Positions 52,144-54,432 of a stretch of DNA of 64,000 nt are shown here, piece by piece. The stretch is from NCBI RefSeq assembly GCF_003058265.1, contig NZ_QBUK01000004.1, positions 248,001 to 312,000 of the forward strand, read 5' to 3'. Position 1 is the stretch's first letter. Each line of letters starts with the position of its first letter. Position numbers and translations under genes: made by a program. The DNA is from Flagellimonas amoyensis. GTDB lineage: Bacteria > Bacteroidota > Bacteroidia > Flavobacteriales > Flavobacteriaceae. The notes under the pieces are model-generated. The model made no database searches. It had not been told where the DNA came from and saw only the letters and a list, made by a program, of their open reading frames with translations.

Positions 52144-54432
52144 ATGAAACCATACCCAGTTTTCCCTTCGGCACTGTTTCTCGTACTTGTCCTTTGTATA
52201 CTATCCGGTCGGGTCTTCGCCCAACAACCCGGCCAAGCCTATTTTGACAATACAGGATTTGTGGAATACATCCACGGCAACCATCCCATTATCATTTCTG
52301 TTCCACATGATGGGGATATGAACCCCAATATGATACCCGATAGAAACTGCATAGACTGCATTACGGTCAATGACACTTATACCCAATCCATGGGGAGGGC
52401 CATTGCCCAGGCCTATTTCAATGAAACCGGTTTCTATCCCTATGTGATCATCAACAGGCTCTCCCGGGCGAAATTTGATGCGAACCGAGAAAAACCAGAA
52501 GCAGCAAATGGCAACCCAACTGTAGAATTGGCTTTTGACAACTACCATGCCTACATTGCATCAGCCAAAACAGATATCATCCAAAACTTTGGCAGAGGTC
52601 TTTTTCTGGACCTTCACGGACATGCACATGCCATTGAAAGAGTTGAACTGGGCTACACATTGACCGGGGATGAACTTCGACTTTCGGACGCCACCTTGAA
52701 CACCAACGCCTATATCAGCAGAAATGGTATCCGAACCTTGATCAATGATAATCGAGGTGGACTGACGCATGTGGAACTTTTGAAGGGACCATATAGTTTT
52801 GGAACCTTGCTCCATGAAAAAGGTTACCCGACAGTTCCAAGTACGGCGGACCCCTATCCCAATCCAAACGAGGATTACTACAATGGCGGTTACAACGTTT
52901 GGATACATGGGTCCCGACTGAATGCCGGTGAAATTGATGGTATCCAGATTGAAGTCAATCAAGATGTTCGTTTTGACCAAGCGGATAGAGCGTTCTTTGC
53001 GGAATCCTTGGCACAATCCCTCATCCAATATTTGAGTTTACATTATGGTGTCGGCGTTATAGATTTTGACCAAGATGGGTTCACTTCCGATCAAGATTGT
53101 AATGATGACAATCCCAATATCAATCCAAATGCCGCCGAGATTCCATACAACGGTGTCGATGAGGACTGTGATCCCGCCACATTGGACGATGACCTTGACC
53201 AGGATGGGTTCAGCAATGGGAATGATTGTGATGACAGCAATGCCAGCATCAACCCAACTGCTTTGGAAATTCCATACAACGGAATTGATGACGACTGCAA
53301 TCCTGCCACTTTGGACGATGACCTTGACCAAGATGGGTTCAACAATGCGGATGACTGTGATGACAGCAATGCCAACATCAACCCAACTGCTGTGGAAATT
53401 CCATACAACGGTATCGATGATGACTGCGACCCCGCCACTCTGGACGATGACCTTGACCAGGATGGTTTCAACAATTCGGATGACTGTGATGACAACAATC
53501 CCAACATCAACCCAACTGCTTTGGAAATCCCATACAATGGTATCGATGATGACTGCGACCCCGCCACTTTGGACGACGACCTCGATCAGGATGGTTTCAA
53601 CAATGGGGATGACTGTGATGACAGCAATCCCAACATCAACCCAAGTATTGTGGAAATTCCATACAACGGTATCGATGATGACTGCGACCCCGCCACTCTG
53701 GACGATGACCTTGACCAGGATAGTTTCAACAATGGGGATGACTGTGATGACAGCGATGCCAGCATCAATCCAACTGCTTTGGAAATCCCATACAACGGTA
53801 TTGATGATGACTGCGACCCTGCCACTTTGGATGATGACCTCGATCAGGATGGTTTCAACAATGGGGATGACTGTGATGACAGCAATGCCAACATCAATCC
53901 AACTGCTTTGGAAATTCCATACAACGGTATCGATGACGACTGTGATCCCTCCACTTTGGATGATGACCTTGACCAGGATGGTTTCAACAATGGGGATGAC
54001 TGTGATGACAGTAATGCCAACATCAACCCCTTAGCCCATGAAATACCCGATAATCTAGTGGACGAAAACTGCGATGGACTATTGGAGGTAATACCAGAAC
54101 CAGAACCAGAACCAGAACCAGAACCAGAACCAGAACCAGAACCAGAACCAGAACCAGAACCAGAACCAGAACCAGAACCAGAACCAGAACCAGAAATTAA
54201 AAATGGGGTGATCATTTATCCCAACCCAGCAAGAGATGAAATATTTATCAACAAAGATACTCCTTCGGATTTCGTGGTCCAAATTTTTGATGCCAACGGC
54301 AGATTGGTACTCCGAGAGAATAATCAGACTACGCTCCAGATTGACCACCTTTCCAGTGGCACCTATCTATTGATCTATGTAGACCCCTCTTCCAGACAGG
54401 TCATCAGAAAAAAAATGATTGTATTGAGGTAG
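52144..54432 (+). CDS. T9SS-secreted protein: FGase-like domain, eight 43-residue acidic repeats, (PE)17 linker, sorting domain
   Basis: A 762-residue secreted protein from ATG 52144 (two upstream in-frame ATGs add up to 11 polar residues). Order: signal peptide 1-26 (SGRVFA end); N-formylglutamate-amidohydrolase-like domain ~27-305 with [25 protein letters not shown] and [11 protein letters not shown], the usual metal and substrate motifs; eight 43-residue repeats at 307-650, each with [15 protein letters not shown] and [14 protein letters not shown], matching thrombospondin-3/MopRP-like calcium-binding repeats; (Pro-Glu)17 at 651-684; T9SS type A sorting domain ~690-762 ([22 protein letters not shown]). 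Probably a cell-surface or released hydrolase. Confidence 0.88.
53062..54093 (+). repeat. Tandem repeat, 8 x 129 bp within the T9SS protein gene
   Basis: Unit starts fall at 53062, 53191, 53320 and so on to 53965, exactly 129 bp apart. Units 2-7 are nearly identical in DNA, while the first and eighth are more diverged. Each unit encodes 43 residues with two cysteines and about 13 acidic residues. There are no spacers, so this is not a CRISPR array. Confidence 0.97.
54094..54195 (+). repeat. (CCAGAA)17 hexanucleotide tract encoding Pro-Glu
   Basis: Seventeen perfect hexamer units, 102 bp. Any gain or loss of a unit keeps the frame, so slippage would change linker length without loss of the sorting domain. 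Alternating Pro-Glu should form a stiff, extended, negatively charged spacer. Confidence 0.97.

Follow-up and report, generated by a model that had tools for sequence, protein, structure and literature searches.

The window analysed here, a stretch of 64,000 nucleotides from the bacterium Flagellimonas amoyensis (contig NZ_QBUK01000004.1, positions 248,001 to 312,000), encodes a protein that joins a putative hydrolase of the N-formylglutamate amidohydrolase (FGase) superfamily to eight MopE-type repeats, a run of Pro-Glu (PE) pairs, and a predicted sorting domain for the type IX secretion system (T9SS). Each of these parts has been described singly, and it is the joining of them that appears to be new: no described case of an FGase-like domain combined with such repeats and a T9SS tail was found in the open-licence full-text literature searched. 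The best explanation that we can offer, to which we give an even chance, is an exported hydrolase on a stalk, in which a metal-dependent amidase would cut a small amide, Ca2+-binding repeats would act as a spacer, and the PE run would act as a linker.

The open reading frame (ORF), at 52144-54432 on the + strand, encodes 762 amino acids, with an ATG at 52144 and a stop codon ending at 54432. A second in-frame ATG is located upstream, at 52111, and the hydrophobic leader read as a signal peptide comes after the ATG at 52144. The first-pass annotation had assigned the gene to this interval, in the order secreted hydrolase, repeats, PE run, and sorting tail, and both the interval and the order were confirmed (Table 1). 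Short imperfect 16-bp tandem repeats are also seen at 51011-51050, upstream of the glycosyltransferase gene, and at 52063-52094, upstream of the hydrolase gene.

Table 1. Features of the hydrolase gene and its two flanking genes, in window coordinates
Feature	Position	Strand	Details
Sec signal peptide (predicted)	52144..52221	+	residues 1-26; cleavage probably ...RVFA|QQ; read by eye; similar leader in orthologs
FGase-superfamily hydrolase domain (putative)	52222..53061	+	residues 27-306; motifs PHxG, D..T, R.K.D.NR, D.HG, GG, Q.E
Eight tandem 43-residue MopE-type repeats, plus the few residues leading up to the PE run	53062..54093	+	residues 307-650; PF11617
(Pro-Glu)17 linker	54094..54195	+	residues 651-684; perfect 6-bp tandem array
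T9SS type A C-terminal sorting domain (predicted)	54196..54429	+	Pfam and TIGR match at residues 691-760
Family-2 glycosyltransferase, flanking left	51090..51932	+	Pfam; synteny
Type I phosphodiesterase, flanking right	54440..56113	-	Pfam; synteny

The type IX sorting domain proposed at first reading is supported by two models, since the tail scores 48.5 bits against PF18962 (cut-off 27) and 41 bits against TIGR04183 (cut-off 23), and sprA, the one T9SS gene that was searched for, is present in the genome. With its Sec leader (by eye), its sorting domain, and sprA, the window protein is a predicted T9SS type A cargo, which the Sec pathway and then the type IX system would carry outside the cell. 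It shares the tail and the presence of sprA with the T9SS type A cargo proteins of the Bacteroidota, but its combination of domains was not found outside the genus in either the family or the phylum sample.

The first reading had also called the N-terminal domain an FGase-like hydrolase, and this held for the family but is undecided from the single protein, for which PF05013 gives 18.9 bits with the whole sequence and 24.0 bits with the domain alone, both below the cut-off of 28.9. We aligned 34 relatives drawn from 57 domain hits (L016 and L040, which have internal stops, are among those omitted). PF05013 matched 32 of the 34 at E<=0.1 (best, 1.3e-11), and TIGR02017 weakly matched 33 of them (best, 4.1e-11). 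The hhalign comparison of the family with seven FGase proteins gave 98.6% and an E of 9e-16 over 193 columns, and these columns pair the PH, R...D.NR, D.H, GGY, and Q.E motifs of the two sides; the seven comprised five proteins with 231-322 bits to TIGR02017 (one of them over the cut-off), one 220-bit PF05013 match, and one distant match of 48.7 bits. H29, D51, R82, D86, N88, R89, and H132 (domain numbering) are invariant in all 34 relatives. A sequence search of the PDB with the hydrolase domain alone returned no chain at E<=10, and the sole match to the family profile was 2q7s, an FGase, at an E of 0.71. AlphaFold2, given the window domain and three orthologs (four sequences in all), reached a mean pLDDT of 36.1, too low for the model to be interpreted. 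As a family, the domain is homologous to FGases at the superfamily level, and from this homology and these motifs we infer a metal-dependent amidase. The enzyme domain is under purifying selection, with dN/dS values of 0.060, 0.079, and 0.081 against three orthologs (dS was not computable for two further orthologs).

A secreted FGase-like domain had been regarded at first reading as unusual, and in this respect the annotation was not supported. Most of the FGase-like relatives from other Bacteroidota, whose shared domain is 34-49% identical to that of the window protein, carry an export leader or begin like a lipoprotein, and in several the C-terminus resembles a T9SS tail (all by eye). What distinguishes the window protein from these relatives is its repeats: no repeat was detected by our search pattern in any of the 36 relatives outside the repeat-bearing clade (28 from other genera and eight paralogs from the same genus), several of which lie near SusD-like or gamma-glutamyltranspeptidase (GGT) genes.

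Counting the window's own genome throughout, the domain was matched in 26 of the 71 genomes of the genus; the wider samples gave 12 of 199 for the family and 13 of 395 for the phylum. A scan of viral contigs returned no relative. Close relatives with a name are those in Allomuricauda taeanensis, Flagellimonas hadalis, and an Allomuricauda metagenome-assembled genome, with a domain identity of 87-91%. The full architecture was found in the window's genus alone, where 21 of the 71 genomes have the repeat-bearing form; the search for the same architecture that the first-pass annotation had called for gave no case outside the genus in the samples covered, and the combination was absent from the literature searched. 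Thirteen of these 21 genes are intact into the tail, four are cut by contig ends (L069, L071, L075, and L076), and four are interrupted: in L064 and L078 the reading frame breaks off inside the repeats and tail-coding sequence follows further along, L065 contains unknown bases, and L068 has stops in the domain.

The position of the gene is constant. The same glycosyltransferase lies to the left in all 20 orthologs besides that of the window, and the phosphodiesterase lies to the right in all 16 orthologs whose contig reaches that far, although in one close relative (L062) about 4.4 kb of other genes separates the stalked hydrolase from the phosphodiesterase. By eye, this insert (about 1400-5800 of L062) reads as a peptidase-type ABC exporter with small membrane proteins, and look-alikes of its genes stand at the same site in L138, without the hydrolase. 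Of the 50 genomes of the genus that lack the gene, 45 were fetched and 43 had a measurable site; in 10 of these the interval does not exceed 30 bp, in six it measures 66-351 bp, and in the other 27 it spans 447-5464 bp, mostly with other ORFs inside. The glycosyltransferase-phosphodiesterase interval (51932-54440 in the window; L109-L153) is thus a variable site in the genus, empty or with different genes, among which we noticed by eye 2-hydroxyacid dehydrogenase-like, peptidase-like, and acetyltransferase-like proteins, and lipoproteins. Mapped onto a quick tree built from the products of the two flanking genes, the presence and absence of the gene takes 12 changes, at least nine of them by well-supported branches, against 17.9 for shuffled labels. 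Because the site is single and unchanging, one early gain with repeated loss is probably the simplest reading, though the count cannot separate gain from loss.

Because the flanks of this site are constant but its contents are variable, no function was drawn from the window gene's own neighbours, and it is the neighbourhoods of the relatives that provide the substrate clues. A SusD-like gene adjoins all eight of the same-genus paralogs, which lack repeats, and, among the rest of the 36 relatives, one from another genus. This gene is 94-100% identical to that of the L101 locus in six of the paralogs, so the eight are not independent. The order at L101 is FecR, SusC-like, SusD-like_2, the FGase-like protein, a class V aminotransferase, and two amidohydrolases, and L100 and L094 resemble this locus by BLAST. 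It should be mentioned that the SusD-like/FGase-like region is nearly identical across species of the genus in L056-L058, L060, and L061 (SusD-like genes 94-99.8% identical to that of L101), which suggests that this region may have been transferred recently.

One genome (G485; L093, 3023-16017) packs three FGase-like copies into 13 kb. With them are found GGT, penicillin amidase, a pair of beta-lactamase-family genes, and a marginal Asp/Glu-racemase-like gene, which scores 31.1 bits against a cut-off of 31. An M14 carboxypeptidase lies near the relative in another locus, and amidohydrolases lie near others. L086 and L090 represent two genera of one family. Each has two FGase-like copies separated by about 11-12 kb, a space in which both have the same large genes (47-85% identical), and the distance to GGT is 3.5-4.8 kb.

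GGT was found within 12.2 kb, a limit chosen after the distances had been seen, in 15 of 31 relatives' genomes, when 0.47 was expected. When the genus cluster is counted once, eight of 24 are near GGT (expected, 0.38; P about 9e-10), and after further collapsing, five of 21 (expected, 0.33; P about 1e-5); in these estimates split hits were merged, genome sizes were rounded, contig breaks were ignored, GGT counts and distances were entered by hand, and two genomes searched for GGT, G000 and G647, were left out. The GGT-near label is scattered on a second quick tree, which takes in the relatives and the HutG-type proteins, with five changes, at least three of them forced, so the link is not one inherited block. 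In the other 16 of the 31 genomes no GGT lies inside this limit of 12.2 kb, and two of these lack the gene altogether. Neither GGT nor SusCD adjoins the window gene, the GGT of its genome is on another contig, and the repeat-bearing clade stands apart from the GGT-near relatives on the second tree. A SusC/SusD-like pair does exist elsewhere in the window, at 17394-22030, with 24-33% identity to the SusC- and SusD-like proteins that the relatives' loci encode.

These neighbourhoods hint that the substrate is a glutamyl or N-acyl amino amide and not formylglutamate, and they speak for such amide metabolism more than for the peptidoglycan or formylated peptides suggested at first reading. The likely target would be a small amide, such as a gamma-glutamyl or N-acyl amino-acid or peptide bond, and its cleavage would feed nutrient uptake. 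We consider, with moderate confidence, that a secreted amidase of glutamyl or N-acyl amino compounds is the most likely reading. A more ambitious version of it, which is tentative and, taken as a whole, rather unlikely, is that the extracellular FGase branch of the Bacteroidota cooperates with GGT and with uptake of the SusCD kind, the compounds handled being gamma-glutamyl or N-acyl-glutamyl ones (poly-gamma-glutamate, for example, or gamma-glutamyl peptides or glutathione conjugates), and that the Flagellimonas/Allomuricauda copy, outside such a locus, sits on a calcium-hardened surface stalk of variable length.

The same neighbourhoods bear on the possibility that the enzyme is directed at the cell wall and cuts peptide or amide bonds in the peptidoglycan of its own or other bacteria. 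Carboxypeptidase-like folds include wall peptidases, and the penicillin amidase, beta-lactamase-family, and marginal racemase-like genes of the G485 locus would suit such a role. However, no peptidoglycan-binding domain was present among the Pfam matches, and nine relatives adjoin a SusD-like gene, which is typical of nutrient uptake; we take a wall-directed amidase to be an improbable account.

The small-amide hydrolase that we favour would be displayed on the repeats as on a stalk. PF11617, the MopE-type metal-binding motif, scores 228.8 bits in eight stretches, each of them over the cut-off of 27 bits, and all eight matches to this motif in the genome are confined to the ORF. The repeats start at residues 307, 350, 393, 436, 479, 522, 565, and 608, and each has two Cys residues 23 apart and a net charge of -12 to -15. 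In the DNA they appear as a 129-bp unit repeated 6.9 times, with 89% matches and a score of 1409. The eight 43-residue repeats claimed at first reading were thus recovered in the protein, and the rod described there as (PE)17 counts exactly 17 PE pairs; its DNA, at 54093-54195, is a hexamer repeated 17.2 times without a mismatch (100%). Both DNA arrays are far from chance.

Across 105 inner repeats of 12 proteins (the window protein and 11 orthologs, with units of exactly 43 residues and at least three units per protein, and with the interrupted L064 and L078 included), 13 of the 43 columns hold a single residue. The search pattern itself imposes four of these, namely the first Cys and the Asp of columns 1, 3, and 5. 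The nine beyond it comprise five Asp, one of which the pattern restricts to D/N/S, together with the second Cys and one column each of Glu, Tyr, and Asn. In all 12 proteins the repeats are more alike within a protein than between proteins. Between near orthologs, the inner repeats have no one-to-one match, whereas the first repeat matches, and so does the last, except against the interrupted L064. The comparison of repeat and hexamer counts suggested at first reading was made between species: the intact orthologs have from one repeat (L074) to 18, a second repeat pattern counting one fewer in L067 and L080, and the PE run is absent from five of the 13 intact proteins and reaches its maximum of 17 in the window. 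The inner repeats turn over, and the numbers of repeats and PE pairs vary freely from one species to the next, with the enzyme itself conserved.

In the PDB, the only match to the repeat region at E<=0.1 was MopE*, residues 6-43, with an E of 3.7e-5. The motif is thus common to the window protein and MopE of Methylococcus capsulatus, but the window protein has eight motifs in tandem and has no match to the rest of MopE*. According to the published work, the first 46 residues of MopE*, including the part that matches the repeats, are invisible in the crystal (PMC3423442), calcium protected MopE from proteolysis (PMC3423442), the copper site of MopE consists of two His and a kynurenine, and the Ca2+ site of CorA and MopE* sits in the crystal-visible part (PMC3912023). 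Because the copper site is visible in the crystal and the first 46 residues are not, the copper site lies outside the repeat-matched part, and the MopE/CorA copper core was rejected as a model for the window protein, in which the repeat region matches MopE* residues 6-43 alone and the hydrolase domain matches no PDB chain. The described Ca2+ site is likewise in the visible part. Calcium binding by the repeats, as the first-pass annotation had expected, is plausible from their Asp pattern. The most likely role of the eight acidic, disulfide-capable repeats would be that of a rigid, Ca2+-binding spacer, and the PE run may be an extended linker to the sorting tail.

The repeats might instead be the working part of the protein, as a metal-binding or adhesive filament at the surface to which the hydrolase is secondary, or even inactive. 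Their strong acidity, their turnover between species, and their numbers of up to 18 copies are what such a filament might show, but the motif residues of the hydrolase are invariant, its dN/dS is low (0.06-0.08), an intact ortholog manages with one repeat, and all 36 relatives outside the clade do without any. We consider this reading to be doubtful, and hold to the exported amidase with its repeats as a spacer.

HutG, the N-formylglutamate deformylase of TIGR02017, was the remaining candidate. It is homologous to the window protein over most of the hydrolase domain and shares its motifs, but the window protein scores 12.5 bits as a whole and 15.7 bits as a domain against an equivalog cut-off of 278.75 (more than 260 bits under it), and it is exported, by prediction, and multi-domain. 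A cytoplasmic HutG of histidine utilisation does not fit the leader (by eye), the T9SS tail, or the neighbours: no hut gene is present among the four neighbours checked against Pfam (GT2, methyltransferase, ACP synthase III, and phosphodiesterase). In addition, the stretch between the NR and YH motifs, which holds the LCPTTxF region of HutG, is shortened in the window family. The second quick tree, with 13 of the 21 repeat-bearing proteins in it, places the HutG-type proteins at the end of a very long branch, printed as 2.08 changes per column on each side of the root, and carries a warning of long-branch effects. A true secreted N-formylglutamate or formyl-peptide deformylase, for which the alignment of the FGase motifs would speak, is against this evidence very unlikely. 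As judged from these comparisons, the hydrolase belongs to a distinct, predicted secreted branch of the FGase superfamily in the Bacteroidota, separate from HutG.

FGase-like domains are thus not solely cytoplasmic: the Bacteroidota appear to have a distinct, mostly exported branch, often near gamma-glutamyltranspeptidase, and such a GGT-linked branch was not described in the open-licence full-text literature searched. The proximity to GGT points to a testable class of substrates for these exported enzymes. The genus-specific stalk, with one to 18 repeats and from none to 17 PE pairs on one enzyme, is a natural series in which the effect of the length of a surface spacer may be probed.
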